38,351 nucleotides of DNA from Acetobacteraceae bacterium (GTDB lineage Bacteria > Pseudomonadota > Alphaproteobacteria > Acetobacterales > Acetobacteraceae), in contig JAIYDS010000241.1 in NCBI GenBank assembly GCA_027487385.1, positions 1-38,351 of the forward strand, read 5' to 3'. Made by a program: the position numbers and the translations under genes. Every line of letters starts with the position of its first letter. The first letter of the stretch is position 1. This document shows positions 928 through 18,943 of this stretch, piece by piece. Under the pieces are notes generated by a model that saw only the letters and a list, made by a program, of their open reading frames with translations, did not search any database and was not told the origin of the DNA.

Positions 928-2784
928 ATGGTCCATGCCAGCAATCTTTGCGCGCCGCTGATCGCCGTCCAGGGCGCAGCGCCGCCGGAGCTGGAGGCGG
1001 TGGGCGTGCCACTGCGCCGGCTGGATGGCGCTGGCCCGCTGGCGGCGCAGCTGTATCGCGCCGATCTCGCGCGGCTGGACCTGCTCTGGCTTGAAAACCC
1101 TGAGGCCTTGCTGGATTGGGACCTGACCACGCCCGAGGTGACGCGCATCGCCTGGGACCGCCATTGCACCATCCCCGCCGGGCTGCCGGCCCATCTGCAA
1201 TCCGCCGGCTATCGCCTGGCGGAGGCCGGCCTGGCCCAGCGCGACCCGGCCCGACCGGCGCCGGGGGATGTGCCGGCCCTGCGCGCCTTGGCCGAGACCC
1301 TCCCGCCCGAAGCGGCGCTGCCTTTGCTGCGGCTGATCGCGCCCTGGGATGCGGCGGCGCGGCGGGCGCTGGTGGCGCAACTGACCGCGCAAGGCGCCTG
1401 GGCCGCGGCGCTGCACCAGGCCGCCGGATTCTGCGCGGCCGACACAGCGGCGGCGGGCGCGCTGGAGGGCTTCAACCGCGCCATCGCAGGAGGCGAACTG
1501 GCGGAGGCGGAGCGCATGGCCGCTGCGCTGGCGGTCTATGGCCCGGGCAATCCCGCGGTGCTGGAGGCGGCACTGGCCTGCAACCGCAACCTGGGCCATG
1601 CCGCCCGCGCGCAGCGCTTCGCCCGCACGCTGCTGGCGCTCGATCCGCATCACGCCGGCGCGCATCTCGTCCTGCTGGAACAGGCGGTGGCCGAGGGCGA
1701 CCGGGCCGCGGAACTGGCCCATCGCAGCGGCCTCGCGCTCTCGCCGCCCGAGGCGCTGCACCCGCTGCGCCGCCTGCATGAGGCGCATCGCGCCATCAGC
1801 CTGCATCTGCTGCACCCGCTGGATGTGCCGGGCCGCGCCGCCGTGCAGGCGCTGGTCGGCGCGGCGCATGGCGTGGACCCCATGGCCCTGCCCGAGGGCG
1901 AGGCACGGCATTGGGCGCGGCATTACCGGCATCTCGCGGAAGCGGCTGATCCGGCGCTGCTGGGCCGCAGCGCCGCGCCGCTGGCGGTGGAGGCGCTGCA
2001 CCGCGCCGCCGGGCGGCCGCTCAGCTGGGCCGGGCTGCGGCGCCAGGCGCGCGGGGCGAAGCTCGCCTTCGTGGTGGCGGCGGATGCTGCCTATCTGCGG
2101 CTTTACGGCCGCGCCTATCTGACCTCCATCCTGCGCCATGCGGACCTGCCCGCGGTGATCCTCGTGCATGTCATCGGCGGCGCGCGGCAGCTGCCGGATC
2201 TGATCCGGCTGATGGATCTCGCCGACTCGCGCATCCTCTACACCGCCGATGATTTCGCCCCGGGCGACGTTACCACCCAATGCCATGACAGCGGCGGGCC
2301 GCGCGCCCTGCCGGTGGCGCATTTCCAGTGCGCGCGCTTCGCCATGGCGCGGCGCGTGCTGATGGAGCTGCGCCTGCCCGTCCTCGTCTCCGACATTGAT
2401 GCCGTGCTGCAACGCGGTGTGGCGGAGCTGATCGCGCGCTTCGCGGATTGCGACGTGGTGCTGAACCGCAATGAGGCGAGCGAGGCCTTTGGCAGCCACA
2501 TCACCGCCAATCTGCTGCTGGCCTGGCCGACCGAGGCGGGGCTCGATTTCCTTGCCGGCTTGCAGGGCTATCTGGAGACGGCGCTGGCCGCGCCGCATGT
2601 CACGCGCTGGATTGACCAATGCGGGCTGCAGGCCTGCTGGAACGCCAGCAGCGCCCGCTTCGGCTGGTTCGACACCACGGCGGACATCAACAATGTGATG
2701 TATCCGCGCTGGATGCCGAACCCCTTCCTCTTCCTATCGCTGTTTCACGGCTTTGACATGGCGAGCCTGCCGCAAGCGGCCTGA
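928..2784 (+). CDS. Large glycosyltransferase-like protein with helical-repeat N-terminus
   Basis: The start ATG at 928 is preceded by GGGAG at 914-918; the frame is open further upstream but without a better start. The product is 618 residues. About residues 90-420 are Ala/Leu-rich paired helices resembling TPR-like repeats (for example AAALAVYGPGNPAVLEAAL, HAARAQRFARTLLALDPHH). The last 230 residues look like a nucleotide-diphospho-sugar transferase fold: a beta strand LAFVVAADAAYLRLYGRAYL, a DxD-type metal site in LVSDIDAVLQ, and a GSHITANLLLAWPT segment. This fits transfer of a sugar from a nucleotide sugar, probably to a protein or surface glycan. It converges with the GT41 gene and their 3' ends overlap by 51 bases. 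Family is inferred from motifs only. Confidence 0.65.
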   Translation: MVHASNLCAPLIAVQGAAPPELEAVGVPLRRLDGAGPLAAQLYRADLARLDLLWLENPEALLDWDLTTPEVTRIAWDRHCTIPAGLPAHLQSAGYRLAEAGLAQRDPARPAPGDVPALRALAETLPPEAALPLLRLIAPWDAAARRALVAQLTAQGAWAAALHQAAGFCAADTAAAGALEGFNRAIAGGELAEAERMAAALAVYGPGNPAVLEAALACNRNLGHAARAQRFARTLLALDPHHAGAHLVLLEQAVAEGDRAAELAHRSGLALSPPEALHPLRRLHEAHRAISLHLLHPLDVPGRAAVQALVGAAHGVDPMALPEGEARHWARHYRHLAEAADPALLGRSAAPLAVEALHRAAGRPLSWAGLRRQARGAKLAFVVAADAAYLRLYGRAYLTSILRHADLPAVILVHVIGGARQLPDLIRLMDLADSRILYTADDFAPGDVTTQCHDSGGPRALPVAHFQCARFAMARRVLMELRLPVLVSDIDAVLQRGVAELIARFADCDVVLNRNEASEAFGSHITANLLLAWPTEAGLDFLAGLQGYLETALAAPHVTRWIDQCGLQACWNASSARFGWFDTTADINNVMYPRWMPNPFLFLSLFHGFDMASLPQAA

Positions 2785-4764
2785 TGTTGGACCCTGGGGC
2801 CAGAGCCGGCCATCCGCCGGCAAGGGCCGCACCGCATCCAGCCGCGCGAGGCGCTCGGCATAGAAGCCATGGTAATCGGGGAGCGCGAGCATCTCTTCGG
2901 CCTCGTGATCCAGGCTCGTGCCGATTTCGAGATAGGCGTCGAGGTTGTCCAGGCGCGGCTGCGGCGTGCGGCCGGCCTGGTGGGCGCGGGCGGCCTGGGC
3001 ATAGAGCCCCTCCAGCCGCTGCACGAGCTTTTCCATGTTGAACAGGTCACAGCGCGTGCGGCGGGCGGCGAGCGTCTTGCGATGGCGGGCCAGTTCCGCC
3101 GGATCCTGCGCGAGCGCGATGGCGCGGGCGACATAGTCATCCGGCGTGGCGCAGACCATGCCGGGCAGGCCGGCCGAGCGCACCAGGCTGCCACAAACGC
3201 GCGAGGCGAAGCTGCGCCCCGAGAGCGTCAGCACCGGCACACCCAGCCAGAGCGCGTCCGAGGCCGTGGTGTGCGCGCCATAAGGCGCGGAATCCAGAAA
3301 GAGGTCCGCCAGGCGATAGCGGGCCAGATGCTCGGGATTGGGCTGCTTGGGCGCGAAGATGATGCGGCCCTCGGCGATGCCGCGTGCGGCCGCGAAGGCG
3401 CGCAGATTGGCGCGCATCTCCTCGCCCGAATCCAGCAGCCAGAGCACAGAGCCCGGCACCGCCAGCAGGATGTCCATCCAGCGCCCCATGGTGAAGCGCG
3501 AGAGCTTCTGCGCCGCGTTGAAGCAGCAGAAGACGAAGCCCTGCTCTGGCAGGCCGGCGGCGGCGCGGCTCGGCGTCGGCGCGATCACGCGCTTGCGGTC
3601 ATTGGGCTGGTAGCAGGGCAGGCGCAGTACGCGCTCGGAATAGTAGAGCTCGGCCTCGGGCGGGATGATCCAGGGGTCGGCGATGATGTAGTTGTGCCAG
3701 GGCGTACCCAGCGTGCCGGGATAGCCGAGCCAGTTGATCTGCACCGGTGCCGGCCGCCGCGCGAAGATGGCGGTGCGCGCATCCCGCGTGTAGCCGTTCA
3801 CATCCACCAGGATGTCGATGCCATCGGCCGCGATCCGCTCGGCTGCCGCGTCATCGCTGAGGGGGCGGATATCCACCCAATGCTCCACGGCGGCCTGGAT
3901 GCGGGCCTGGAGCGCGGCATGGGAGGGCGGGCCGCAGTAATAGGCGGTCACCTCGACGCGGCTCTGGTCATGCAGCTCGAAGACCTCGGCCATCAGCGTA
4001 CCGATGGCGTGGTCCCGCAGGTCGGAGGAGATGTAGCCGATGCGCAGACGCCGCCCTTGCAGCGCGATGGGTGCATCGCGTCGATCCTGCCGGCCCAGGA
4101 GCTGCCGCTCATCCACCAGGCTGCGGGCGTAGTGATGCGCGAGCCCCAGCTGCAGCAGCGGGTCATCCGTATAGGCCAGCATGGAAAGCGGACTGGTGCC
4201 GCGCAGCAGCCGGCGGCGTTCGCTGGCATCGCCGGGTGGCAGGGCGGGCCAGGCGCATTGCACCAGGCGCAGCGCCATGAATTGCTCGATCACGTCGCGC
4301 TGCTCGGGGTTGATCTCCAGGCATTGCCGCAGCATGGCCTCGGCCAAAGCCGGCTTGAGATGCTCGCTGAGCACGCGGGCGATCTGGCGCAGCGCCGTGA
4401 GCTTATAGGCGATGGCGGCGCCGGTGACGGCGACGAGGCGCTGCGCCACCCCCTGCCATTGCTCGATGGCCTGCGGCACGGCGCCGCTGCGTTCCAGCAG
4501 CCCGCCGAGGTTGATGCTGGCCGGCAGGAAGTCCGGATTCAGCGCGAGGCAGGCGGTGAGCGAGCCCATCGCCGCTTCCGCCTCGCCGCGTTCGCTGAGC
4601 AGGCAGGCATGGTTGAAATGCGCGATGTAGAGCTGCGGGTTGGCCGGATTGGCGCCAATCCAATGCGCATAGAGGCGGCAGGCCGCCTCACCTTCCCCCT
4701 GGGCGGTGAGGCGTTGGGCTTCCGCCACAAGGTCTGAGAGCGTCATCTCCAGGGTTTCGGACAT
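2734..4764 (-). CDS. SPINDLY/OGT-type O-linked glycosyltransferase (GT41) with TPRs
   Basis: The product is 676 residues. Residues about 1-190 form TPR helices (NPQLYIAHFNHACLLSERG, NPDFLPASINLGGLLERSG). The rest is the catalytic region of the O-GlcNAc transferase family. Family blocks are visible in order: RIGYISSDLRDHAIG (the His after the Asp matches the conserved OGT His), DVNGYTRDARTAIFARRPAP, then INWLGYPGT, CCFNAAQKLSRFT (the Lys matches the UDP-binding Lys), SVLWLLDSG, and APYGAHTTASDALWLGVPVLT. Such enzymes transfer a sugar from UDP-sugars to Ser/Thr of proteins in the cytoplasm; TPRs select the acceptor. It begins only 21 bases after the octapeptide-repeat gene on the same strand, so the two are probably co-transcribed and that Ser/Thr-rich protein is an obvious candidate acceptor (inference). 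Confidence 0.9.
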   Translation of the reverse strand: MSETLEMTLSDLVAEAQRLTAQGEGEAACRLYAHWIGANPANPQLYIAHFNHACLLSERGEAEAAMGSLTACLALNPDFLPASINLGGLLERSGAVPQAIEQWQGVAQRLVAVTGAAIAYKLTALRQIARVLSEHLKPALAEAMLRQCLEINPEQRDVIEQFMALRLVQCAWPALPPGDASERRRLLRGTSPLSMLAYTDDPLLQLGLAHHYARSLVDERQLLGRQDRRDAPIALQGRRLRIGYISSDLRDHAIGTLMAEVFELHDQSRVEVTAYYCGPPSHAALQARIQAAVEHWVDIRPLSDDAAAERIAADGIDILVDVNGYTRDARTAIFARRPAPVQINWLGYPGTLGTPWHNYIIADPWIIPPEAELYYSERVLRLPCYQPNDRKRVIAPTPSRAAAGLPEQGFVFCCFNAAQKLSRFTMGRWMDILLAVPGSVLWLLDSGEEMRANLRAFAAARGIAEGRIIFAPKQPNPEHLARYRLADLFLDSAPYGAHTTASDALWLGVPVLTLSGRSFASRVCGSLVRSAGLPGMVCATPDDYVARAIALAQDPAELARHRKTLAARRTRCDLFNMEKLVQRLEGLYAQAARAHQAGRTPQPRLDNLDAYLEIGTSLDHEAEEMLALPDYHGFYAERLARLDAVRPLPADGRLWPQGPTSGRLRQARHVKAVKQR

Positions 4765-4785: not shown

Positions 4786-6585
4786 TCAGAGGCCGAGATA
4801 GGCCGTGATCTGTTCATCCGACATGCTGCCCACCTGCGTGGCGTCGAAGCCGGCGAGCTGGGTTTCGCTCAGGGCAGCGATGTTGGTGGTGGAAAGCTGG
4901 TCGATCTGCGTGGTGGTCAGCGCGCGGATCTGCGTCGAGGTGAAGGGCTCGACCGCGGTGGTGGTGAGCGCGCCGATGACCGTGGTGGTGAGCGCGCCGA
5001 TCTGCGAGGCGCTCAGCGAGGCCACCTGGGTGGAGGAGAATTCCCCGATATCGGTGCTGGAGAGCCCCTGCACCTGGGTGGTTGTGATGCCACGCAGCTG
5101 CAGTGTGCTCATCCCCTCCACCTGGGTGGCATCGAGCGCGGAGAGGTTGGTGGCGCTCAGGGCCGCGATCTGGGAGACGCCCAGCGCACCGACCTGGGTG
5201 GCGGAGAGTTCACCCACATCGGTGGCGGTGAGGCCGCGGATCTGGGTGGCGGTCACACCACCGATCTGGGTGTTGGTCAGGGCGGCGACCTGTGTGCCGT
5301 CCATGGCGGAGAGGCCGGTGGCGGAGAGGCCTGCGATCTGGGAGGCGGCGAGGGCGCCGATCTGGGTTGCGGTCAGCTCACCCACATCGGTGGCGGAAAG
5401 GCCGCCCATCTGTGTGGCGGTGATGCCGCGGACCTGGGTGGTGCTCATGGCGCCGATCTGTGTGGCGTCAAAGCTGGAGAGTGCGGTGGCGGTGATGCCG
5501 CCGATCTGGGATGCGGTGAGGCCGCCGATCTGTGTGGTGGAAAGGCTGGCCAGGTTGGTGGCGCCGAGCGCGCCGAGCTGTGTGGCGGAGAGGGCGCCGA
5601 TCTGGGTGGAGGAGAGCTCACCCACATCGGTGGTGGAGAGGCCGCCGAGCTGGGCATTGGTCATGCCGCGGACCTGGGTGGTGGAAAGCGCGGCGACCTG
5701 CGTGGCGTCGAGGGCGGAGACGCTGGTGGCACTCAGCGCGCCGATCTGGGATGCGGTCAGGCTGCCGACCTGCGTGGCGGAGAGCTCGCCGAGATCGGTG
5801 GTGGTGAGGCCCTGGACCTGGGTGTTGGACAGTGCGCGCAGCTGGGTGCCGGAGAGGGCCGCGGCCTGTGTGGCATCGAGCGCGGAGAGGTTGGTGGTGG
5901 AGAGCGCGCCGATCTGGCTGGCGTTCAGCGCACCGACCTGCGTGGCGGAGAGTTCACCCACATCGGTGGCGGTGAGGCCGCGGATCTGGGTGGCGGTGAC
6001 GCCACCGATCTGGGTGTTGGTCAGAGCGGCGACCTGGGTCGAATCCATCGCCGACAAATTGGTCGCCGAAAGCCCGCCGATCTGCGACGTGGTCAGCCCG
6101 CCGATCTGCGTCGTGCTGAGCGCCGCCACCTGCGTCGTCGCCAGCGCGCCCACCTGGCTCACCGTCAGGGCGCGGATCTGCGTGCTGCTGAATTCGCCGA
6201 TATCCGTGGTCGTGAGCGCGCTGAGCTGCGTGTTGGTCAGCGCCCGGATCTGGGAGGTGTTCAGGGCCGCGACCCTGGTGGCGTCCAGCCCCGAAAGCTG
6301 CGTCGTGGTCAGCGCGCGCACCTGGAATTCGCCCAGCACCGCCAGTTGCTCGCCGCTGAAGCTCAGCTGCGCCGCCAGATAGGGGATCTGCGTGGCCGTG
6401 AGCCCCCGCACCTGGGAGGTGGAGAGCGCGCCGATCTGCGTGGCGCTCATCGTCTCGACCGCGGAGCTGCTCAGCGCGCCGATCTGGGTCGAGGTCATCG
6501 CGCTGATCTGCGTCGTGGACAGGGCCTGAACCGACGTCGTGGACAAGGCGCGGATCTGGTTGGTCGAAAGCAGCGAGATGGACAT
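4786..6585 (-). CDS. Octapeptide-repeat (x-Q-I/V-x-x-L-S/T-x) solenoid-like protein
   Basis: The product is 599 residues, nearly all tandem octads of the type TQIGALST. Position 2 is usually Gln, 3 is Ile/Val/Leu, 6 is Leu/Met, and 7, 8 and 1 are Ser/Thr/Ala. I count 73 octads, broken once by QLSFSG at residues 73-78. Special octads beginning TD (TDVGEL or TDIGEF) start at residues 127, 207, 263, 319, 399, 455 and 511: spacings 80-56-56-80-56-56. An octad ending in Asp-Ala/Ser/Gly sits exactly 32 residues before each. I see no Lys, His, Cys or Trp. There is no Sec signal, TM segment or RTX motif. AAGGA at about 6591-6596 precedes the ATG. Ser/Thr-x-x-Gln spacing could cap short helices; a beta-solenoid is the alternative. 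Function unknown; a surface or secreted protein is plausible. It lies between FkbM and GT41 genes. Confidence 0.85.
   Translation of the reverse strand: MSISLLSTNQIRALSTTSVQALSTTQISAMTSTQIGALSSSAVETMSATQIGALSTSQVRGLTATQIPYLAAQLSFSGEQLAVLGEFQVRALTTTQLSGLDATRVAALNTSQIRALTNTQLSALTTTDIGEFSSTQIRALTVSQVGALATTQVAALSTTQIGGLTTSQIGGLSATNLSAMDSTQVAALTNTQIGGVTATQIRGLTATDVGELSATQVGALNASQIGALSTTNLSALDATQAAALSGTQLRALSNTQVQGLTTTDLGELSATQVGSLTASQIGALSATSVSALDATQVAALSTTQVRGMTNAQLGGLSTTDVGELSSTQIGALSATQLGALGATNLASLSTTQIGGLTASQIGGITATALSSFDATQIGAMSTTQVRGITATQMGGLSATDVGELTATQIGALAASQIAGLSATGLSAMDGTQVAALTNTQIGGVTATQIRGLTATDVGELSATQVGALGVSQIAALSATNLSALDATQVEGMSTLQLRGITTTQVQGLSSTDIGEFSSTQVASLSASQIGALTTTVIGALTTTAVEPFTSTQIRALTTTQIDQLSTTNIAALSETQLAGFDATQVGSMSDEQITAYLGL
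5182..5292. repeat. 111-bp direct repeat, copy 1 (in octapeptide-repeat gene)
   Basis: By eye this segment matches 5926-6036 with four mismatches, at a distance of exactly 744 bp (31 octad codon units). Other octads in the gene share the amino-acid pattern but differ much more at DNA level. The pair therefore looks like a fairly recent internal duplication or gene conversion within the repeat gene. Confidence 0.85.
5926..6036. repeat. 111-bp direct repeat, copy 2 (in octapeptide-repeat gene)
   Basis: Second copy of the 5182-5292 segment, four mismatches by eye. It encodes the TNTQIGG, TATQIRGLTA and TDVGEL octads at the junction between the first 80-residue block and the following 56-residue block. 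In copy 1 the same octads lie at the junction of two 56-residue blocks. The two copies therefore sit at different phases of the higher-order pattern. Confidence 0.85.
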
Positions 6586-6734: not shown

Positions 6735-7832
6735 TCAGGCGGCCTTGCGGCGGGCGGATGTGGCCGGCGCGTCGAAGGCGATGGCGCCGCGCCATTGCAG
6801 CATCGGCGGCTGCGGCCCACCACCGGGCGCAAGGCGCAGCAGCCCTGCCTCTTCGTGCCAGGACCAGGGCCGCGGCCCGGCCTGGGTGATGAGCCCCGCG
6901 GCAGCCACGCGCGGCAGCATGTCGAGCAGCAGCGCGGCCTGGGCCAGGCTGCATGGGCCGAGATCGGCCAGGGCGAAGGCGAAGCGGCCCTGCCGCGCCG
7001 CATGCCGCAGCAGCGCCTCCCAATCGCGCGGCTTGCGCGGGTCCCCTGCGAAGTGGAGCGGCGCCGATGCCGCGCCGAAGCTCGCATCGGCCGCGGTTTG
7101 CGTGGCACCCAGCGCGAGGACGGAGAAATCGCGGCACCGCCCGCGGGAGGCGGCCAGCCACGCGTCAAACCCGGCCACGGGCCCGCGCAGGGCTTGCGAC
7201 GGGCGCGCCACCTCGCGCTCGAACAGGAAGTCCAGCTGCAGCAGACCGCCATTGTGGACGCCGCGCAGGCGATGGAATTCCGCCACCTCCGCGCTGCGGA
7301 AGCCCAGCGCCGCCAGCGCCGCGAAGACCTCCTCCGCCCGCGCGCCGCCCTGGTTGTATTCGACCAGCGAGATCTCGATCAGAATGTAATCCGCCTGGCG
7401 CAGCACCTCCTGCCCGCCGCGCAGCACATCCAGCTCGGCGCCCTGCGTGTCGATCTTCACGAAGTCGAAGCGGCGGCCAGCCAGCACATCGTCCAGCCGC
7501 CGCTTGGGGACGGGCGTGCGGACCAGCACCTCGTCGCGGAAGAAATGCGTGTTCTCCCGGTAGAGCGAAGTGCCGGTGGATTGCAGCCATTCGCGGGTGA
7601 GGAACAGCTCCGCCTCGCCATTCTCGTGGCTGGCGGCGAAGCCCAGCACCTCATGCCCGGTCGCGGCCAGGGCGGGCAGGCAATGCGGGTTGGGCTCCAC
7701 CAGCGTGGGCACGCAATCGGGGAAGACCTGCCGGACCCCATGGGTGAAGTGGCCCAGATGGGCGCCCACATCGAGCAGGGTGCGGGGCGCATAGCCCGCG
7801 AAACGCAACGCTTCGAGCCGTTCTGGTCGCAT
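6735..7832 (-). CDS. FkbM-family SAM-dependent methyltransferase
   Basis: The product is 365 residues from the ATG at 7830-7832. The N-terminal two-thirds is a class I SAM methyltransferase of the FkbM type: motif I as TLLDVGAHLGHFTHGV (about residues 18-33), an acidic ribose-binding position in TLVEPNPHC, and the family-typical VKIDTQGAELDVLRGG and ADYILIEISLVEYNQGG. FkbM enzymes methylate hydroxyl groups, often of sugars in glycans or natural products. The C-terminal 130 residues (from about GPVAGFDAWLAASRG) are not typical of FkbM and include a second helical/strand-rich region of unknown role. It is the first gene of the FkbM-repeat-GT41 run; the leader carries a strong inverted repeat whose arm includes the GAGAG ribosome-binding sequence. 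Confidence 0.85.
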   Translation of the reverse strand: MRPERLEALRFAGYAPRTLLDVGAHLGHFTHGVRQVFPDCVPTLVEPNPHCLPALAATGHEVLGFAASHENGEAELFLTREWLQSTGTSLYRENTHFFRDEVLVRTPVPKRRLDDVLAGRRFDFVKIDTQGAELDVLRGGQEVLRQADYILIEISLVEYNQGGARAEEVFAALAALGFRSAEVAEFHRLRGVHNGGLLQLDFLFEREVARPSQALRGPVAGFDAWLAASRGRCRDFSVLALGATQTAADASFGAASAPLHFAGDPRKPRDWEALLRHAARQGRFAFALADLGPCSLAQAALLLDMLPRVAAAGLITQAGPRPWSWHEEAGLLRLAPGGGPQPPMLQWRGAIAFDAPATSARRKAA

Positions 7833-7917: not shown

Positions 7918-8883
7918 TCAGCTCTCGGGCTTGATGTCCGCGCGGCGGATCACCGCGCCCCACTTCTCGTATTCCTCGCGTTGGATGCGGGCCAGTTCCT
8001 CCGGCGTCGAGGCCACCAGCTCATAGCCGAGTTCGAAGAAGCGGCGCGCCACATCGCTGTCGCGCGCGGTGGCGACCGTCGCGGCGTGCAGGCGCTGCAC
8101 CACGGAAGGCGGCGCGCCGGCGGTCATGTAGATGGCGGCCCAGGTGTAGCTCTCGAATTCCGGCAGTCCCTGCTCGGCCACCGGCACCAGCTCGGGCATG
8201 TTCGGGATGCGCGTCTTCGTGCCCGCGCCGAGCGCGCGCAGCGTGCCCTGCTGCACCTGGCCGATGGCCGGCGCCAGCGCGTCGATCATGAAGGTGACGC
8301 GGCCCGCCAGCAGCTCGATGATGGCGGGGCCCGAGCCGCGCGTCGGGATATGCGTGGCCCGCACGCCGGCCAGTTGCAGGAAAAGCTCCGGCGCCAGATG
8401 GGTGATGGAGCCGGCACCGGTGGAGACGTAATTGTGCCGCCCCGGCTCCCGCCGCAGCAGGGCGATCAGCTCCTGCACATTGGTGAGGCCGGAGGCCGGG
8501 TTCACCAGCACCACATGCGGCACGCGGGCGATGAAGCTGATCGGCTGGAAATCCCGCACCGGATCGTAGCGCAGCGTGGGAAACAGCGCGGGGGCGATGC
8601 TGTTGGTGGCCCCCGTGGTGCTGAACAGCGTGTGGCCATCTGTCGCGCGCGCCACCACCTCGGCCGCGATGGTGCCGCCCGCGCCGGTCCGCCCCTCGAT
8701 GATGACGGGCTGGCCCAGGCGCTGCTGCAGCCCGGGGGCGAGCAGCCGCGCCGTCAGATCCGTCACGCCGCCCGCCGCGAAGGGCAGGATCATGCGCAGC
8801 GGCTGGCGCGGCCAATCGGCCGTCTGAGCCTGGGCTGCCAGGGGCGCCGCACCAGCGGCGGCAAGCAGGGCACGGCGTTTCAT
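7918..8883 (-). CDS. Bug/TctC-family extracytoplasmic substrate-binding protein
   Basis: The product is 321 residues with an N-terminal export signal (MKRRALLAAAGAAPLAAQAQ). The family pattern follows: WPRQPLRMILPFAAGGVTD (the carboxylate-binding loop), then VIIEGRTGAGGTIAA, DGHTLFSTT, and YVSTGAGSITHL. Bug proteins are periplasmic receptors of tripartite tricarboxylate transporters and usually bind carboxylic acids. No TctA/TctB membrane genes are in the window, so this is an orphan receptor here, as is common in this group. Its ATG overlaps the stop of the upstream small AtuA-associated gene (ATGA), so it is the last gene of the glpK-PLP-AtuA operon and probably delivers or senses the substrate of that pathway. 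Confidence 0.93.
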   Translation of the reverse strand: MKRRALLAAAGAAPLAAQAQTADWPRQPLRMILPFAAGGVTDLTARLLAPGLQQRLGQPVIIEGRTGAGGTIAAEVVARATDGHTLFSTTGATNSIAPALFPTLRYDPVRDFQPISFIARVPHVVLVNPASGLTNVQELIALLRREPGRHNYVSTGAGSITHLAPELFLQLAGVRATHIPTRGSGPAIIELLAGRVTFMIDALAPAIGQVQQGTLRALGAGTKTRIPNMPELVPVAEQGLPEFESYTWAAIYMTAGAPPSVVQRLHAATVATARDSDVARRFFELGYELVASTPEELARIQREEYEKWGAVIRRADIKPES

Positions 8884-9221
8884 GCGGGTCTCTCCAGCAA
8901 TTCCTCGGGGATGGTCACGGTGAGCGACAGCAGGCGGAAGGAGTTGGTCTTGCCATGGCCATCCAGGTTCAGGCTGCCATTCACGCCGCCCTCCAGCACC
9001 TCATCCACCACGAAGTTGAAGCTGTGGATCAGCGGCAGGTCATGCCGCACGCAACTGGTGGCACCGCGATGGCGAAAGAGCGCCAGCACGCGCTCCGCCG
9101 TCACCTGCTCGGCCAGCAGCGGATAAAGCTCCGGCCGATAGGGAATGAGCGACATGTTGAGGCGGTTGCCCTTGTCGCCCGCGCGGCCATGCGCGACCTG
9201 GTGCAGGGGGACTTCGATCAC
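8880..9221 (-). CDS. Small AtuA-associated (ferredoxin-fold-like) protein
   Basis: The reading frame extends upstream, but the best start is the GTG at 9219-9221, which overlaps the AtuA stop in a GTGA arrangement. This gives 113 residues starting VIEVPLHQVAHGRAGDKGNRL. The AHGRAGDKGN and LNMSLIPY segments, and the FVVDEVLEGGVNGSLNLDGHGK C-terminal half, match the small partner or C-terminal domain that accompanies AtuA proteins; in some genomes it is fused to AtuA. It probably forms a complex with AtuA. The chemical role is not established to my knowledge. Its stop overlaps the start of the Bug receptor gene by 4 bases. Confidence 0.8.
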   Translation of the reverse strand: MIEVPLHQVAHGRAGDKGNRLNMSLIPYRPELYPLLAEQVTAERVLALFRHRGATSCVRHDLPLIHSFNFVVDEVLEGGVNGSLNLDGHGKTNSFRLLSLTVTIPEELLERPA

Positions 9222-10597
9222 GACAGAATCTCCCGCGCCGTCCGCACCGAGACCGTCACCGGCACGCGCTCGCGCAGCACCAGGTGGCTGCGCGTTAGGA
9301 TGCGCGGCGTGACGCGCCAGCGCGCCCCGCCCGTGCCCGCCGTGCCGCAGCACAACATGGCCAGGACCTCCCGCGCCGCCTGGTCGGCATCGTCGCGCGT
9401 GCGCGCTTCGACGGCCAGGCGGATGCGGATCTCCGGCGGCTCCGGTCCGTCATAGCCGCGCCAGAGCGCGCCATCATCGCTGTCATGCACGCTGGCCACG
9501 CCGATCAGGTCCACCCGCGCGCGGACATCGAGGTGGCGGATCTTCATGCGGGCGAGCAGCACATCGGCGGTGGCGCGGGCGCGGGCCAGGGCATTGGGGC
9601 CGGCGACGGAGACCTCGCCCTCGCCGAGCCAGCTGCCCTCGAAGCTCGCCGTCACCTTCAGCGTATCGGGGCGCGGATGGCCGCGCAGCCCGTGCACGGC
9701 CAAGCGGTCCTGGCCCACCTGCTCCAGCGTGCAGCCGGTGATGTCCAGCACCACATCGGGCGTGATGTAGTGCGCCGGGTCATGCAGCTCATAGAGCAGC
9801 TGCTCCTTCACCGTGCGCAGATCCACGATGCCGCCGGTGTTCGCGGCCTTGGTGATGACCAGCCCGCCCTCCCGCGTTACTTCGGCGATGGGGAAGCCGA
9901 TATTCGCGGGGTCGGGGATGTCCTTGAAGCCGGGGTCCCAGAAGACGCCGCCGGTGACCTGGCTGCCGCATTCCAGCAGGTGGCCGGTGGCGGCACCCAG
10001 CGCCAGCTTCTCCCAATCATCCGCGCGCCAGCCGAAATGATGCGCGAGGGGCGCGATGGCCAGCGCCGGGTCGCTGGTGCGGCCGGCCACCACCACATCC
10101 GCGCCCTCGGCCAGGGCCTGCACCAGCGGCTCCGCGCCGATATAGGCATTGGCGGCGATGAGGTTCCAGGCGCCCATGTCGAGCCCGGCATCCGCCTCAT
10201 GCACCGGCAATTGCCCGCCGGCGACCAGGCCCGTCACGTCATCCCCCTCGACGAGCGCGATGCGCAGATCGGGCAGGCCCTGCGCCATGGCGAGGCGCGC
10301 CACGGCCCGCGCGGCGGCGGGCGGATTGGCCGCGCCCCAATTGCCCAGCAGCGGGATGCCGTGTTGCTTCGCCAGCGCCAGGATGGGCTCCAGCAGGCGT
10401 TCCAGCATGGGCTCATAGCCCGCCTCGCGGTCGCGGCGCTTTTCCAGATGGGCCAGGGCCACGGTGCGCTCGCCCAGCGTCTCGAAGAACATGGCGGAGG
10501 GCAGGCCACTTGCGATCAGGGTGCGCAGCACGGGCAGCGGCGCATCCACCCGGTCGCCCGAGAAGCCTGCGCCATTGCCGACGAGAAAGCGGTCCAT
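9218..10597 (-). CDS. AtuA family protein (DUF1446; acyclic terpene utilisation AtuA)
   Basis: The start is ATG at 10595-10597 (MDRFLVGNGAGFSGDR), with GGGAGAA just upstream; the longer open frame has no comparable signal. The product is 459 residues. Family features are the N-terminal GNGAGFSGDR loop, LLGNWGAANPPAAARAV, a DVVVAGRTSDPALAIAP segment, HLLECGSQVTGG, and ITKAANTGGIVDLRTVKEQL. AtuA was named from a Pseudomonas citronellol/geraniol operon, but related genes occur next to varied carboxylate-pathway genes, so terpene use should not be assumed. No atuCF-like carboxylase genes are present here. It sits between the SelA-like PLP enzyme gene (37-base gap) and its small partner (4-base overlap). 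Confidence 0.88.
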   Translation of the reverse strand: MDRFLVGNGAGFSGDRVDAPLPVLRTLIASGLPSAMFFETLGERTVALAHLEKRRDREAGYEPMLERLLEPILALAKQHGIPLLGNWGAANPPAAARAVARLAMAQGLPDLRIALVEGDDVTGLVAGGQLPVHEADAGLDMGAWNLIAANAYIGAEPLVQALAEGADVVVAGRTSDPALAIAPLAHHFGWRADDWEKLALGAATGHLLECGSQVTGGVFWDPGFKDIPDPANIGFPIAEVTREGGLVITKAANTGGIVDLRTVKEQLLYELHDPAHYITPDVVLDITGCTLEQVGQDRLAVHGLRGHPRPDTLKVTASFEGSWLGEGEVSVAGPNALARARATADVLLARMKIRHLDVRARVDLIGVASVHDSDDGALWRGYDGPEPPEIRIRLAVEARTRDDADQAAREVLAMLCCGTAGTGGARWRVTPRILTRSHLVLRERVPVTVSVRTAREILS

Positions 10598-10634
10598 CTG
10601 GTTCTCCCTGGGCTCAAGTCTTCGCCGGGCCGCG

Positions 10635-11816
10635 TCAATCCGCAAGGGCGGCGCGCAGCAATTCGCCCAGGCGCGCGCAATCCCGCTCATGCAGGCTGAT
10701 CGGGTTGATGGTGAGGATGCCCTCGCGCAGCCGGGCCGGGTTCACATGCACGGCCGGGGTTCCGGCGCGCAGCCGCGCTTCCATGGCCGGTGCATCGGGC
10801 ACGCGCAGCAGCAGCAGCGGAACCTCGCCCGCGGCGCCCTCCTCGAATTCCAGGCCCGCGGCGGCGCGCACGGCGTCCAGGCGCGCCTGCCAGCGTGCGC
10901 GGCGGGTGGCCGCATCCTCGCGGGTGAAGCGGCGCAGCGCGACCAGCAGCCCCATCACCTCCTCGCGCCCCACCTTGCAGGAGCGGCCGATGCCGGTGCG
11001 CGGGAAGAAGGCGAGTTGCGACAGCGCCGAAAACTCCGCCGGCGCGCGGAATTGCCCGGCCGGCAGGTCGAGGTCGAGCATCTGCGCCAGCCCCGCCGCC
11101 ACCAGCGGCCCGCGCCCGGCGAGAATGCCCGAAGCCTGCGGCCCACCGATCGCCTTGCCGCCGGAGAAGGCCACGAGATCGGCGCCCTGTTCGAAGAAGC
11201 GGCGCAAATTCTCGGCCGGCGGCAATTGCGCGGCCGCATCCACGATCACGGGGATGCCGGCCTCCCGCGCCACGGCGGTGATCTCGGGCAAGGGCGGCTC
11301 AGCATGGGGCTGCGCCACATGCAGGATGCCGGCGGTGCGCGGCGTGATCGCATCGGCGAATTCGGCGGCACTCGCATCGCGCACGCCAGCGCCCGAGACG
11401 CGGTCGGGAATGCCGACATCCACGAGGCGCCCGCCCGCCGTCTCGATGGCGCGGTCATACATGTTGCGCTGGCTGCGCGAGATCAGGAATTCGCAGCGCC
11501 CCTCGCGCGTCATCGGCAGCCGGTTCATCGCCCCGGCATCGAGCCGCGTCAGGCAGGCTGCGGCGGCCAGCAACAAGGCGGCGGAGGCGCCGGAGGTCAC
11601 GAAACCCGCCTCCGCTCCCGTCGCGTGGGTGATCTCGCGGCAGGCCGCGGCCTGGAGGTCGAGGATATCCACGCTGGCCGTCGCGGCCTCGCGCATGGCG
11701 TCGGCCACCTCATCGCTCAACGGCCCGGCGGAGAGGCGGGTGTTGGTGCCATAGGCGTTGATAATGGGGGTGATGCCGAAGCGCTCGAAGATCATGCGCT
11801 GCGCGTCCCTGGTCAT
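10635..11816 (-). CDS. SelA-like / aminotransferase class V-type PLP enzyme
   Basis: The chosen start, ATG at 11814-11816, overlaps the glycerol kinase stop (ATGA), giving 393 residues; an alternative ATG at 11793-11795 begins MIFERFG. The protein is a fold-type I PLP enzyme of the SelA/D-glucosaminate-6-phosphate ammonia-lyase group: [37 protein letters not shown] (phosphate cup), the Asp in [13 protein letters not shown] (about residue 193, pairs with the pyridine nitrogen), and the Schiff-base Lys in [12 protein letters not shown] (about residue 221). It is not true SelA, since it is shorter and no selenocysteine genes are nearby. A lyase or deaminase acting on an amino acid or amino sugar acid is plausible; the substrate is unknown. 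Confidence 0.82.
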
Positions 11817-13291
11817 GCGCTGCGCGTGCGGCGCACGGCATCCTGCCAGAGCGCCTTGCGTTCGGCCGCTTCCGAGCGGCTCATATTCGGCAGGAAGCGG
11901 CGCTCCAGCCGCCAATGGGTGGGCGCATCGCCGGGTGGGGGCAGGAGCCCGGCCTGCAACCCCGCGAGATAGGCGGCACCCAGCGCCGTGGTCTCGGTCA
12001 CCGCGGGCCGGTCCACCGGGGCGCCCAGCAGATCGGCCAGGAATTGCATGGTCCAGTCGCTGCCCACCATGCCGCCATCCACCCGCAGCACCGTCTCCTT
12101 CATGCCCGGCCAGTCGCGCCGCATCGCGTTCAGCAGGTCACTGGTCTGCAGGGCGACCGATTCGAGCGCGGCGCGGCAGATTTCGGCGCGGCCGGAGGCG
12201 CGGGTCAGGCCCAATATGGCGCCGCGCGCCTCGGCATCCCACCAGGGCGCGCCGAGGCCGGTGAAGGCGGGCACCAGGTGCACCCGCTCGGCCGGGTTGG
12301 CGCGGGCGGCCCATTCCCCGGCTTCCCGCGCGTGCTGGATGATGCCGAGGCCGTCGCGCAGCCATTGCACCGTGGCGCCGGCCATGAAGATCGAGCCCTC
12401 CAGCGCATAGGCGCGGCGGCCGCCCAATTGCCAGGCGATGGTGGTAAGCAGGCGGTTGGTGGAGGTCACGGCCTCCTCGCCCGTCACCAGCAGGGCGAAG
12501 CAGCCGGTGCCATAGGTGGATTTCATCATGCCCGGCGCGAAGCAGGCCTGGCCGATGGTCGCCGCCTGCTGGTCGCCGGCCATGCCGAGGATGGGGATGG
12601 AGCCGCCCAGCAGCGTGGTCTCGCCGAAAGGTGCGGCACAGTCCCGCACCTCGGGCAGGAGGCCCATGGGCACGCGGAACAGCGCGCATAGCTCCGCATC
12701 CCAGGCGCCGCGATGGATGTCGAAGAGCATGGTGCGCGCCGCGTTCGTCGCATCCGTCGCATGCACGCGCCCCTCGGTCAGGCGAAACAGGAGAAAACTC
12801 TCCACCGTGCCGAAGCAGAGTTCGCCGCGCTCCGCCGCCGCCCGCGCGCCGGGCGTGTTGTCCAGCAGCCAGCCGAGCTTGGTGGCGGAGAAATAGGGGT
12901 CGAGCAGCAGGCCGGTGCGGGCCGTGACCAGCGCTTCATGGCCCTGGGCGCGCAGCCCCTCGCAGATGGCGGCGGTGCGGCGGTCCTGCCAGACGATGGC
13001 GCGGCTGACGGCGCGGCCCGTCGCGCGTTCCCAGAGCAGGGTCGTCTCGCGCTGGTTCGTGATGCCGATGCCGGCGACATCCCGCGCCGTCCCCCCGGCG
13101 CGCGCCAGGGCCTCGCGCAGCACGGCGATGCTGTGCGCGGCGATGTCCTCGGGCTCATGCTCCACCCAGCCCGGCGCCGGGAAATGCTGCGGCAGTTCCA
13201 CCTGGGCGGTCGCGCGCGGTTCCAGCCGCTCGTCAAAGGCGATGGCGCGCGTCGAGGTCGTGCCCTGGTCCAGGGCGAGCAGCAGGGGCAT
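11813..13291 (-). CDS. glpK: Glycerol kinase
   Basis: The start is ATG at 13289-13291 with GGGAG about 8 bases upstream; the upstream GTG at 13300 overlaps that SD and is less likely. The product is 492 residues, the usual GlpK length. FGGY-kinase features are [12 protein letters not shown] (phosphate loop), NQRETTLLW and AIVWQDRRT (the Arg-Glu and Trp that contact glycerol), LDPYFSATK (Tyr), AGDQQAA (catalytic Asp), [11 protein letters not shown], and [18 protein letters not shown]. All expected glycerol contacts are present, so it should make glycerol 3-phosphate from glycerol and ATP. It is odd that glpD, glpF and a glp regulator are absent and that glpK leads an operon with a PLP enzyme, AtuA and a Bug receptor, so a related polyol acid substrate cannot be excluded. 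Confidence 0.9.
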
Positions 13292-13353
13292 GGCGTTCAC
13301 TCCCAGGTGTTGGGGGCAGGAGAGGAAGGAATCCCGGCAGGGTCAACCGGGGT

Positions 13354-13382
13354 TTGACGCAGGGGGAGGGCGGCCCGACAAT
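13354..13382 (+). promoter_or_regulatory. Sigma70-type promoter for the M20 amidohydrolase
   Basis: TTGACG at 13354-13359, then exactly 17 bp, then GACAAT at 13377-13382; the gene starts at 13409. A divergent TTGACC lies on the minus strand at 13341-13346, so GTCAACC/GGTTTGAC form a small inverted repeat between two back-to-back -35 boxes. The minus -10 for the glpK operon is poor. Confidence 0.6.
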
Positions 13383-13408
13383 CGGAGAACAGCCGAGGAG
13401 CCCACCCC

Positions 13409-14584
13409 ATGCCCGTGAACAACCGCATCGCCGCCATGGCGCCCGAAATCGCTGAATGGCGCCAGACCATCCATGCCAACCCCGAGCTGGGCTTCGAGGA
13501 GCATGCGACCAGCGCGCTGGTGGCCGAGAAGCTCGCCTCCTGGGGAATCGAGGTGCATCGCGGCATCGCCGGCACCGGCCTGGTGGGCGTGCTGCGCAAC
13601 GGCAATTCGGGCCGCTCCATCGGGCTGCGCGCCGATATGGACTGCCTGCCGATGACCGAGGAAACCGGCGCGCCGCATGCTTCCAGGACACCCGGCAAGA
13701 TGCACGCCTGCGGCCATGACGGCCACACCGCCATGCTGCTGGGCGCGGCCAAATACCTGGCCGAAACCCGCAATTTCGACGGCACCGTGAATTTCATCTT
13801 CCAGCCGGCCGAGGAAGGCCCCGGCGGCGGCCGCGTCATGGTGGAGGAAGGCCTCTTCGAGCGTTTCCCCTGCGACAGCGTCTATGGCATCCACAACGAT
13901 CCCTCGCTGGCCCTGGGCGAGACCTCCATCGTCGCCGGCCCCATCCTGGCTTCGGCCGATACGGTCACCTTCAAGATCCGCGGCCTGGGTGGCCATGCGG
14001 CGCGGCCGCATATGGCGATTGATCCCGTGCTGATCGGCGCGCAGCTGGTGGTGGCGCTGCAGGGCATCGTCTCCCGCCGGGTGGACCCGCTGGACAGCGC
14101 GGTGCTGAGCCTGTGCATGTTCCATGCCGGCAGCGCCTCCAACGTCATCCCCGAGACGGCCGAGATCAAGGGCACCATCCGCACCCTGAAGAAGGAAACC
14201 CGCGCCGCGATGGAGCGCCACATCAAGCGCATCGCGGCGTCCGTCGCCGAGGCCTTCGAGGCCGAGATCGTGGTGGAGTGGAAGTCGGGCTATCCCGTCA
14301 CCGTGAACCATGAGCGCGAGGCGGATCTCGCAGCCCAGGCCGCCGCGAAGGTCTTCGCGCCCGAGGGCATCATCCGCAAGCGCCCGCCCATCATGGGCGC
14401 CGAGGATTTCTCCTACATGCTGGAGAAGCGCCCCGGTGCCTTCGTGAAACTTGGCCAGAAGGCGCCCGACGGCAAAGGCGGCGTGCCGGTGCACCATCCG
14501 AAATACGACTTCAACGACGACGCCGCGCCCTATGGCGTCGGCTTTTTCAGCGCCCTGGTGGAGCAGGAATTGCCGCGCGGATAA
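13409..14584 (+). CDS. M20-family amidohydrolase (hippurate hydrolase / N-acyl amino acid type)
   Basis: The product is 391 residues, with GAGGAG before the ATG. It is a peptidase M20D-type metal amidohydrolase: substrate and metal motifs IHANPELGFEEHAT, GLRADMDCLPM (Asp ligand), HACGHDGHTAMLLGAA (residues about 99-114, Cys/His ligands), QPAEEGPGGGRVMVEEG (catalytic and metal Glu), the dimerisation-domain GGHAARPH, and the C-terminal MGAEDFSYMLEKRPG. Such enzymes cleave N-acylated amino acids or related amides in the cytoplasm. It is divergent from the glpK operon and convergent with oxyR, with its own promoter. Substrate cannot be told from sequence. Confidence 0.92.
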   Translation: MPVNNRIAAMAPEIAEWRQTIHANPELGFEEHATSALVAEKLASWGIEVHRGIAGTGLVGVLRNGNSGRSIGLRADMDCLPMTEETGAPHASRTPGKMHACGHDGHTAMLLGAAKYLAETRNFDGTVNFIFQPAEEGPGGGRVMVEEGLFERFPCDSVYGIHNDPSLALGETSIVAGPILASADTVTFKIRGLGGHAARPHMAIDPVLIGAQLVVALQGIVSRRVDPLDSAVLSLCMFHAGSASNVIPETAEIKGTIRTLKKETRAAMERHIKRIAASVAEAFEAEIVVEWKSGYPVTVNHEREADLAAQAAAKVFAPEGIIRKRPPIMGAEDFSYMLEKRPGAFVKLGQKAPDGKGGVPVHHPKYDFNDDAAPYGVGFFSALVEQELPRG

Positions 14585-14591
14585 GGCGACC

Positions 14592-14608
14592 GGGGGGCAG
14601 CGCCCCCC
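14592..14608. terminator. GC-only hairpin between convergent M20 gene and oxyR
   Basis: GGGGGGC at 14592-14598 and GCCCCCC at 14602-14608 form a 7-bp stem with a 3-nt loop in the 25-base gap between the two stop codons. There is no T-tract on the plus strand, so it is a weak terminator or pause candidate serving both directions. Confidence 0.4.
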
Positions 14609-14609
14609 C

Positions 14610-15563
14610 TCAGGCCGTCTCCCGCGCCTTTCCGGGCTTGTGCACCTTCACGGCGCTCTGCTCGGCCAGGATTTCGCCGATGCTCTGCCGCAGCAGCCGG
14701 ATGTCCCGGATGCGGCCGAAGCTGGGCCGGTGGAAGAGCGCCACGTCGCGCATGTGCTGCCCGCCGGTGATCCGCCGATAGGCCACCATGTCATCCAGCA
14801 GCGCCCCCACCTGGATGGCGAGCTGCGGCATGAAGGAGACGCCCGAACCGGCCGCGATCATCTGCCGCAGCGTCTCCAGGCTCGCCGCCTGCAATTCGGG
14901 CGAGCCCTCGCGCAGGCGGCTGGGGCAGAGGGCGATGGCCTGTTCGCGCAGGCAATGCCCCTCGGCGAGCAGGATCAGCTCGGCCACCGGAATATCGCCG
15001 GGGCTGACCGCCTCCACCTGCGCCAGCTTGTGGTCACGCGGCACGGCCAGCGCCAGTTCCTCGCGGAACAGCGGCAATTCGGTCAGCTCGGCATCGCCCA
15101 CCGGGCTGGTGGCCAGCAGCGCGTCCAGCTCGCCTTCCTCCAGCTGGCGGACCAGCACGCGGGTATGACCCTCGGTCAGCAGCAGCTTGAGGTCGGGGTA
15201 GCGGGCGCGCAGCGGCTTCAGCAGGAAGGGCACCAGATAGGGGCCGAGGGTGGAGATCACGCCCAGGCGCAGCGTGCCGGTCAGCGGCTCGGCGCCGATG
15301 CGCACCACTTCGAAGAGGCGCCGCGCCTCGCTGATGATGCGCTTGGCCTGGGCCACCACCTCCTCGCCGCGGCGGGTCACCAGCACCCCGCGCGGGCTGC
15401 GCTCGAAGATCTCCACGCCGAGGAACTCCTCCAGCTTGCGCAGCTGGCCTGAGAGCGTGGGCTGGCTGACGCCGCAGGATTGGGCGGCGCGGCCGAAATG
15501 CAGATGCTCGGCGACGGCGGTGATGTATTCGAGATCGCGCAGGCTCAATCCGGCGAGATTCAT
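14610..15563 (-). CDS. oxyR: OxyR, LysR-type hydrogen peroxide sensor-regulator
   Basis: The product is 317 residues from ATG at 15561-15563; the longer open frame upstream lacks homologous sequence. The N-terminal winged HTH is LEYITAVAEHLHFGRAAQSC, then GVSQPTLSGQLRKLEEFLG. The effector domain carries the OxyR redox signature GHCLREQAIALCP: Cys at about residues 204 and 213, the same 9-residue spacing as the Cys199-Cys208 pair of E. coli OxyR, followed by SLETLRQMIAAGSGVSFMP. Peroxide should oxidise the pair to a disulfide and switch transcription. It is head to head with chrA across 184 bp, so OxyR may control both itself and chrA. No katG or ahp gene is in the window. Confidence 0.92.
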   Translation of the reverse strand: MNLAGLSLRDLEYITAVAEHLHFGRAAQSCGVSQPTLSGQLRKLEEFLGVEIFERSPRGVLVTRRGEEVVAQAKRIISEARRLFEVVRIGAEPLTGTLRLGVISTLGPYLVPFLLKPLRARYPDLKLLLTEGHTRVLVRQLEEGELDALLATSPVGDAELTELPLFREELALAVPRDHKLAQVEAVSPGDIPVAELILLAEGHCLREQAIALCPSRLREGSPELQAASLETLRQMIAAGSGVSFMPQLAIQVGALLDDMVAYRRITGGQHMRDVALFHRPSFGRIRDIRLLRQSIGEILAEQSAVKVHKPGKARETA

Positions 15564-15747
15564 GCGAGTCCCCAAAATTGGATGGCGAGACAGCATTCGC
15601 TCCTGGCCGCTCCAGCGCAAGGGGTTCGCGCCGAGGGCCCGGGGCGGGGAAAGGCGCTTGACGCCGGCCCTGTGCTGGTTGACCCCTGATGCTTCCCGGC
15701 GCCACGACGCGGCGCAGGATCTCCATTTTGCCGACAGGACGCCCCGC
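15564..15747. promoter_or_regulatory. Divergent oxyR/chrA control region
   Basis: This 184-bp gap separates the two starts. TTGACG at 15658-15663 is a possible -35 toward chrA, but no convincing -10 follows at 17 bp. CCAAAATTGG at about 15582-15591 is an A/T-rich near-palindrome near the oxyR start and could be part of a LysR-type site. No clear match to the ATAG-type OxyR site was found by eye. Confidence 0.3.
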
Positions 15748-17043: not shown

Positions 17044-17083
17044 GCAGGATCGGGGGAGGCGGGACTTCGGGAAGAAGAAATAG

Positions 17084-17206
17084 CCTCCGGCAGCTGGGGC
17101 CGAGAGGCCCCAGACCCCAATTGTTTGGACTCAAGCAGGGTGAGTCGAGGATTTTCTATAAAATGGGGTCTGGGGCCTCTCGGCCCCAGCCGCCGGAGGC
17201 CCTTTT
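17084..17206. terminator. Large palindromic bidirectional terminator, repeat-family copy 1
   Basis: Arms of 36 nt at 17084-17119 and 17164-17199 are complementary with a single mismatch by eye and enclose a 44-nt loop. Each arm alone also folds as GGGGCC-TCTC-GGCCCC-type hairpins. CCCTTTTTAC follows the right arm on the plus strand, and an A-rich stretch (GAAGAAGAAATAG) precedes the left arm, so it can stop both chrA (+) and the hydroxylase operon (-). Related half-copies occur at 21262-21308 and 34368-34436. Nothing else was seen in the 189-bp gap. Confidence 0.8.
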
Positions 17207-17232
17207 TACTTTCTTTGCTTGAAGCCAAAGCC

Positions 17233-18941: not shown

Positions 18942-18943
18942 CT

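Follow-up and report, generated by a model that had tools for sequence, protein, structure and literature searches.

An ALTTAQ octad-repeat protein encoded beside a GT41 glycosyltransferase is predicted to form an alpha-superhelical rod with opposed charge stripes

We propose, with somewhat more confidence than doubt, that a 599-residue octad-repeat protein of the ALTTAQ family is an exported, O-glycosylated alpha-superhelical rod, of which the glycosylation, export and function are what we infer. The protein is encoded in the window, a stretch of 38,351 nucleotides from an Acetobacteraceae bacterium (contig C282 of a 5.5 Mb genome in 313 contigs, 88.75% complete). As far as we have seen, and going by sequence, the new features are a pitch of 3.44 octads with a code of 7- and 10-octad spacings, opposed charge stripes, and a gene neighborhood of GT41 glycosyltransferase or type I secretion (T1SS) genes. 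The family name was already known from Pfam; a literature search gave nothing on function. The pitch of a repeat protein was obtained from sequence statistics alone and gives sharp structural predictions. A repeat family without a described function also gains a candidate role, as substrate of the adjoining GT41.

The octad array

The repeat gene lies at 4786..6585 on the minus strand, begins with ATG and has a GC3 of 0.90. By sequence comparison it is under purifying selection: dN/dS is 0.09-0.16 in comparisons with four homologous stretches, of which two come from the same genome. An antisense ORF of 525 aa inside the gene (window 4805-6382, plus strand) is probably a side effect of the high GC content and the repeated codons.

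The main array consists of 63 contiguous octads that run from residue 95 to the C-terminus in a single register. A loose octad pattern fits 62/63 of them and the strict pattern xQ[IV]xxL[ST]x fits 23/63. About eight further octads lie N-terminal of a register break (residues 63-94, 6304..6399, minus strand), where the octad phase shifts and one block is predicted with lower pLDDT (84, residues 71-80). The initial annotation had counted 73 octads of the strict form; the octads are real, but they number about 71, and only 28 in the whole protein match strictly. The octad observation itself is real, and the repeat is more regular than was first seen. Lysine, histidine, cysteine and tryptophan had been reported as absent, and the protein contains none of any of them. 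Lysine is plentiful in some relatives (67 in L008).

Seven octads beginning with Thr-Asp (TD) were located from the octad list and the stripe analysis described below, all on the minus strand: residues 127-134 (6184..6207, on the acidic stripe), 207-214 (5944..5967), 263-270 (5776..5799), 319-326 (5608..5631), 399-406 (5368..5391), 455-462 (5200..5223) and 511-518 (5032..5055). Every position first given for them, and hence the 80-56-56-80-56-56 spacing, holds. An octad ending in Asp-Ala/Ser/Gly precedes the TD octad by 32 residues in 7/7 cases, and an Arg octad precedes it by 8 or 16 residues in 7/7, again as described. One extra Asp-Ala/Ser/Gly-ending octad stands at residue 575 with no TD octad after it.

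A 192-residue super-unit had been called identical between copies, which is incorrect. Octad identity is 57% both at lag 24 (192 residues) and at lag 31 (248 residues), and exact duplications in the protein reach at most four octads. Octad autocorrelation in the window protein, against a null of 1000 octad shuffles, gave z scores of 5.8 at lag 7, 3.5 at lag 14, 3.6 at lag 17, 7.0 at lag 24 and 6.6 at lag 31; lag 10 was weak, at only 1.8.

Superhelical pitch

Octads were coded by their residues and Fourier transformed along the octad index, with shuffled octads as the null. Runs of fewer than 30 octads were excluded, as were the near-duplicate or fragment proteins L053, L018 and L020. L005 was also dropped from the open-frequency scan, and L005 and L006 from the autocorrelation and the held-out and charge sets; both were kept in the finer scan and the TD analysis. 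With frequencies of 0.02-0.5 open, the top peak fell at 0.2875-0.295 cycles/octad in 34/42 runs, and extra peaks at 0.42, 0.13, 0.16 and 0.45 are aliased second to fifth harmonics of the main pitch. A finer scan of 0.25-0.33 gave a median of 0.2905 cycles/octad, or 3.44 octads per turn and 104.6 degrees per octad. In that band 34/44 runs reached p<0.01, and the pitch spread among significant runs was about half a per cent. The mean autocorrelation of 40 runs tracks cos(104.6 deg x lag) with r=0.80 over 32 lags and peaks at 7, 10, 14, 17, 24 and 31. At a pitch of 3.44 octads, 56 residues come to nearly 2 turns, 80 to nearly 3 and 192 to nearly 7. The spacings behind the exact three-level periodicity claimed at first are real, but they are better described as one superhelical period.

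Phylum loci fetched after the pitch fit served as a held-out sample of 46 runs. Significance was reached by 39 and missed by 7; the peak lay at 0.29 in 18, at the alias of that frequency in 2, at about 0.5 in 17 and at other frequencies in 2. All 17 runs at about 0.5 (two octads, 16 residues) belong to family f175, and three of them also have z >9 near 0.29 (L143, L148). The pitch rule thus holds strongly within the alphaproteobacterial set but only in part outside it. The two-octad period dominates many runs of the f175 loci L142, L146, L149, L150 and L151, where it replaces or overlies the 3.44-octad pitch. Genomes with f175 each carry several repeat genes.

Spacings of 7, 10, 24 and 31 octads could also record nothing but duplication of gene cassettes, in which case the pitch would be structurally meaningless. 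Long stretches are indeed duplicated exactly in some relatives (65 octads in L091, 31 in L093, 21 in L003), and the plain two-octad period of f175 proteins fits such an origin. However, runs with exact duplicates of at most one octad keep the pitch (r 0.88 in L014, 0.85 in L015, 0.84 in L009, 0.79 in L012 and 0.67-0.81 in three L056 runs), although other runs of this low-duplication kind, for which exact duplicates alone were scored, have low r (a fourth L056 run at 0.25, one of L090 at 0.15 and one of L021 at 0.14). A 24-octad cassette would moreover give power at all multiples of 1/24, not mainly at 7/24, and a single number brings lags 7, 10, 17, 24 and 31 all close to whole turns. We regard cassette duplication as the whole explanation as quite improbable, and favor a superhelical pitch.

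Charge stripes

Since seven octads make about two turns, ten about three and twenty-four about seven, special octads placed every 7 or 10 steps draw straight stripes. TD octads were examined in runs with at least four of them (28 runs). Of 247 TD spacings, 234 fell in the set {7,10,14,17,24,31} octads, against 15% expected; 144/247 were 7 octads and 35/247 were 10 octads. TD octads pointed at one angle (p<=0.001) in 26/28 runs, with a resultant length of 0.85-0.99 compared with random means of 0.19-0.44. The exceptions were two of the three L090 runs, with R of 0.40 (p 0.48) and 0.63 (p 0.045). The pitch used in this alignment had been fitted on most of the same proteins; three L138 runs were held out, and their TD resultant was 0.99.

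Nine proteins were then aligned with their TD octads at 0 degrees. Acid residues in them lay mainly at 300-30 degrees, reaching 1.95 per octad at 0 degrees, and Lys/Arg had its maximum at 150 degrees. Helix position N3 was occupied by Gln in 95-98% of octads at 90-240 degrees, and this Gln was replaced by Asp near 0 and by Asn at 300-330 degrees. When TD was left free, acid and base were both significantly striped in 27/38 runs, with a mean separation of 156 degrees (R 0.84). These statistics suggest that the stripes lie along the rod at the 3.44-octad pitch. The acidic stripe would consist of TD..E octads flanked by Asp/Asn octads, and the basic Arg/Lys stripe would run about 156 degrees away.

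We infer from stripes on nearly opposite sides that complementary faces could pack rods side by side. A bolder version is possible but rather doubtful: that these proteins form a class of their own, secreted and O-glycosylated 'screw' fibres in which tiles of 7 and 10 octads make up a two-tile code that lays down straight acidic and basic stripes. Through these stripes the glycosylated rods would zip together laterally and out of phase into surface sheets or cables, and giant members (up to 6436 aa) would be single-chain cables. If so, the 7/10-octad code would play in a superhelix the part that heptad and hendecad play in coiled coils.

The acidic stripe may instead bind Ca2+ outside the cell and drive folding after type I export, as in RTX proteins. 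The geometry would place D at helix position N3 and E three residues on, with Asp N-caps adjoining. The concentration of acid residues around 0 degrees speaks for such sites, as do the T1SS genes that adjoin several members. RTX exoproteins have Gly/Asp-rich nonapeptide repeats, whereas ALTTAQ has an octad with S/T-x-x-Q, and no match of the window protein to the nonapeptide Ca2+-binding repeat was obtained by Pfam up to E 1. The opposite basic stripe, in addition, suggests charge pairing as well. A calcium-dependent rod is unlikely on balance, but it is compatible with the exported rod proposed here, glycosylation then being optional.

Predicted fold

AF2 modelled all 599 residues from 12 sequences with a pLDDT of 94.9 and a pTM of 0.73, placing a helix of 4-6 residues in nearly every octad. 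A piece of 24 octads, modelled from 23 sequences, gave a pLDDT of 96.0, a pTM of 0.87 and one helix per octad. L016 was omitted from the folding alignment because it has a masked stretch. In these models each octad is predicted to be one short capped helix, with S/T as N-cap followed by x, T, Q and then I/V-x-x-L. The ALTTAQ protein would fold as one continuous alpha-superhelical rod with about 3.44 octads per turn. The regular solenoid with a placed charge ladder that was first suggested is supported by the AF2 models, the sequence-derived pitch and the aligned acidic and basic stripes.

Could the protein be a beta-solenoid, or ice-nucleation-like, that AF2 has wrongly rendered as alpha? Against this, S/T-x-x-Q with I-x-x-L is a capping-box pattern that we take to read as helical. 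There is a superficial likeness to ice nucleation proteins, which are Thr-rich bacterial tandem repeats with outward Thr arrays according to the available part of PMC9418140. The ice nucleation repeat, however, is a 16-residue beta-solenoid, and ALTTAQ is predicted to form short helices. AF2 does err on repeats; the error described in the available text of PMC11795689 is over-confidence on perfect repeats, and it runs towards beta, yielding confident false beta-solenoids. By contrast, the prediction here is helical and the window repeats are imperfect. HeliScrew4 (PDB 9zem), whose name implies helices, also matches by sequence, and altogether a beta fold is hardly credible.

HeliScrew4 has the same octad pattern as ALTTAQ and was the best PDB sequence match (phmmer E=2.6e-12, profile E=1.5e-19). 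It has 120 residues, with Pro-Glu at the helix start where ALTTAQ has Thr-Thr, and from its name and sequence only we judge it to be a designed protein. It is likened to ALTTAQ by sequence alone, being absent among the Foldseek matches listed. For the 24-octad model, the first nine matches among solved structures were chains of the mesothelin superhelix, an animal protein, with probability up to 1.00. Their TM-scores of <=0.42 and rmsd of 7.7-13.9, at 12-20% identity, indicate that the fold is not the same in detail. No close fold match for the 24-octad model was found among the matches listed (structure library up to April 2026). For the 599-residue model the best PDB matches listed were large helical proteins with TM <=0.28 (0.37 by target length, mesothelin), and a viral fold library gave three matches at E<=0.001 with TM <=0.36. 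If the proposed rod is real, it would offer a template from nature for octad rods whose surface stripes can be chosen.

Competing sequence matches were rejected. Pfam Gp5_trimer_C, LRR_EndoS and DUF4351 score above their own cut-offs yet conflict with the all-helical models. A leucine-rich repeat was suggested by this EndoS-LRR model (34.5 vs 27.9 bits) and by weak sequence matches to LRR chains; both AF2 models are helical and contain no strand.

Family and distribution

The window protein matches Pfam PF20080 (ALTTAQ_rpt) with 291.7 bits, against a curated cut-off of 26.4, over 28 stretches (E=7e-89). The initial annotation had recognized no described family, which is wrong in name, since the repeat is PF20080 and HeliScrew4 in the PDB shares its octad pattern. 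It is correct in that literature searches for ALTTAQ, PF20080 and HeliScrew turned up no paper describing the repeat, the pitch, the gene neighborhood or HeliScrew4. With the window's genome counted, PF20080 matches occurred in 11/60 relatives, 6/289 class genomes and 24/397 phylum genomes (20 over the cut-off).

Among ALTTAQ open frames that are not cut by contig ends, the shortest has about 530 aa (L017) and the longest 6436 aa (G418). Giant frames of 4900-6436 aa were seen in G418 (C1 and C323), G411 (C1 and C2), G383 (C40) and G611 (C1). Two overlapping frames share the ALTTAQ stretch at L015:5146-11548 and at L055:6340-14900, reflecting either a frameshift or a pair of genes. The phage-collection search matched a single phage, Mycobacterium phage Squirty, in two records; its hypothetical protein at NC_026588.1:36383-37030 has 30% identity over 39% of the query.

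Gene neighborhood

Three genes follow one another on the minus strand in the order FkbM, ALTTAQ, GT41, with gaps of 149 and 21 bp, and probably form one operon. The upstream neighbor (6735..7832, 365 aa) encodes an FkbM-type methyltransferase, and the downstream neighbor (2734..4764, 676 aa) a GT41 (OGT-type) glycosyltransferase. The OGT-type domain of the latter is clear (PF13844, 278.2 bits vs a cut-off of 25, E=1.3e-82). TPR models fall below Pfam cut-offs in the window GT41 and above them in the orthologues L003 and L016. An HMW1C-type N-glucosyltransferase (NGT) was rejected as its identity, NCBIfam NF049992 giving 26.4 bits vs a cut-off of 1000.

Conservation of this arrangement was examined by tblastn at 54 loci, 50 of which had a repeat gene by our criterion (L061, L095, L141 and L145 failed). 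A GT41 homologue lies <=5.1 kb from the repeat gene in 28/50 loci, window counted, and a further locus with a 28%-identity match was left uncounted. An FkbM homologue is near in 8/50, window again counted, a sugar epimerase in 6/50, and a close T1SS ABC and/or MFP homologue within 6 kb in 8/50. The locus set is weighted to near relatives, and 20 loci were found using the window protein itself. It also includes pieces of one gene or genome (L018/L020, L057/L060, L058/L059, L135/L136) and pairs of genes of one genome (L089/L090, L091/L092, L137/L138, L142/L151).

GT41 was confirmed by Pfam in 13 loci: the window, 8/10 neighbors of one set and 4/10 of another, the proteins checked being chosen by size and place. 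The remainder comprised two GH3 glycosidases in the first ten, and three T1SS-type ABC proteins, one HlyD and two kinases in the second. For a scale of chance, two GT41 genes in 5.49 Mb would put well <1% of random genes within 5 kb of one. In the 60-genome set of relatives, GT41 was found in 11/11 ALTTAQ genomes vs 22/49 others; it was near ALTTAQ on the same contig in 10/11, the exception, G027, having a single weak repeat match. The later phylum loci include 15 with a repeat gene; 3 of these had a strong GT41 and 3 others a T1SS neighbor. L017, L090, L092, L137, L139 and L146, which have flanks on both sides, matched neither GT41 nor T1SS strongly (L139 had a weak ABC match); other loci without these neighbors were often cut by contig ends. 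In G211 a second ALTTAQ gene (L089:1-1089, minus strand), cut by the fetched stretch, lies on the other side of GT41, so that the enzyme sits between two possible substrates.

Glycosylation and export

GT41 probably O-glycosylates the Thr/Ser-rich rod in the cytoplasm, by analogy with FlmG and flagellins. As described in the available part of PMC7591256, Caulobacter FlmG is an enzyme with TPR and glycosyltransferase (OGT) parts that modifies flagellins in the cytoplasm. Both systems would have a cytoplasmic OGT-type enzyme modifying an exported, self-assembling protein. They differ in that the substrate of FlmG is flagellin and leaves by flagellar export (same part of PMC7591256), whereas gene order is what points to ALTTAQ as a substrate. 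FlmG is likened to the window GT41 by description rather than by sequence comparison, and the term GT41 does not appear in the available part of PMC7591256. Sugars on the rod may be modified further, by FkbM here and by the epimerase at other loci. If the proposal is true, bacterial OGT-like enzymes have another kind of substrate besides flagellin. Thr before Gln was considered as a GT41-linked mark and rejected: it is common in the T1SS-linked L091 and L093 and rare in the GT41-linked L022 and L054, so its distribution provides no clean mark of glycosylation.

The rod would then leave by type I secretion to the cell surface, in the window's lineage by analogy. Type I export is suggested because T1SS genes lie beside members elsewhere, because the C-terminal ends are similar and because the genome has two PrtD-type ABC genes. 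The C-terminal end (residues 560-599, 4789..4908, minus strand) is a candidate export signal that is similar in many of the relatives compared, some rows of that comparison being cut by contig ends. A PrtD-type T1SS ABC scored over its cut-off at 2 places in the window's genome, and in 7/7 genomes tested, this one counted. HlyB-like ABC or MFP proteins of the kind found beside other members had no match inside the window, and the HlyB-like ABC of other lineages had no E<=1e-100 match in the close relatives G009, G015, G019 and G025. An ABC protein close to that of L091 was sought in the window's genome, where the best match was only 34%, and TIGR03375 was nowhere over its cut-off there.

A solenoid that stays in the cytoplasm as a platform for peptide, RNA or protein binding, with the neighboring GT41 acting on something else, would account for several of these observations. 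Inspection of MSISLLSTNQIRALS... by eye shows no evident signal peptide, the repeat gene of the window has no T1SS match beside it, and alpha-solenoids such as Pumilio and armadillo match weakly in fold searches. Against this stand the T1SS genes that adjoin other members and the C-terminal end, whose likeness among many relatives is what one would expect of an export signal at that end. GT41, moreover, adjoins not only alphaproteobacterial but also Burkholderiales/Comamonas members (L021, L022). We consider a cytoplasmic binding protein improbable, and prefer the exported, glycosylated rod.

Elsewhere in the window, a 686-aa ORF at 724-2784 on the plus strand has no Pfam match at E 0.001 and may not be a gene. 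Positions 7918-20077 hold ordinary metabolic genes, among them a TctC receptor, AtuA, a SelA-like protein, an FGGY kinase and an M20 peptidase, together with a LysR regulator, a chromate transporter, an FA hydroxylase and a YncE-like propeller.
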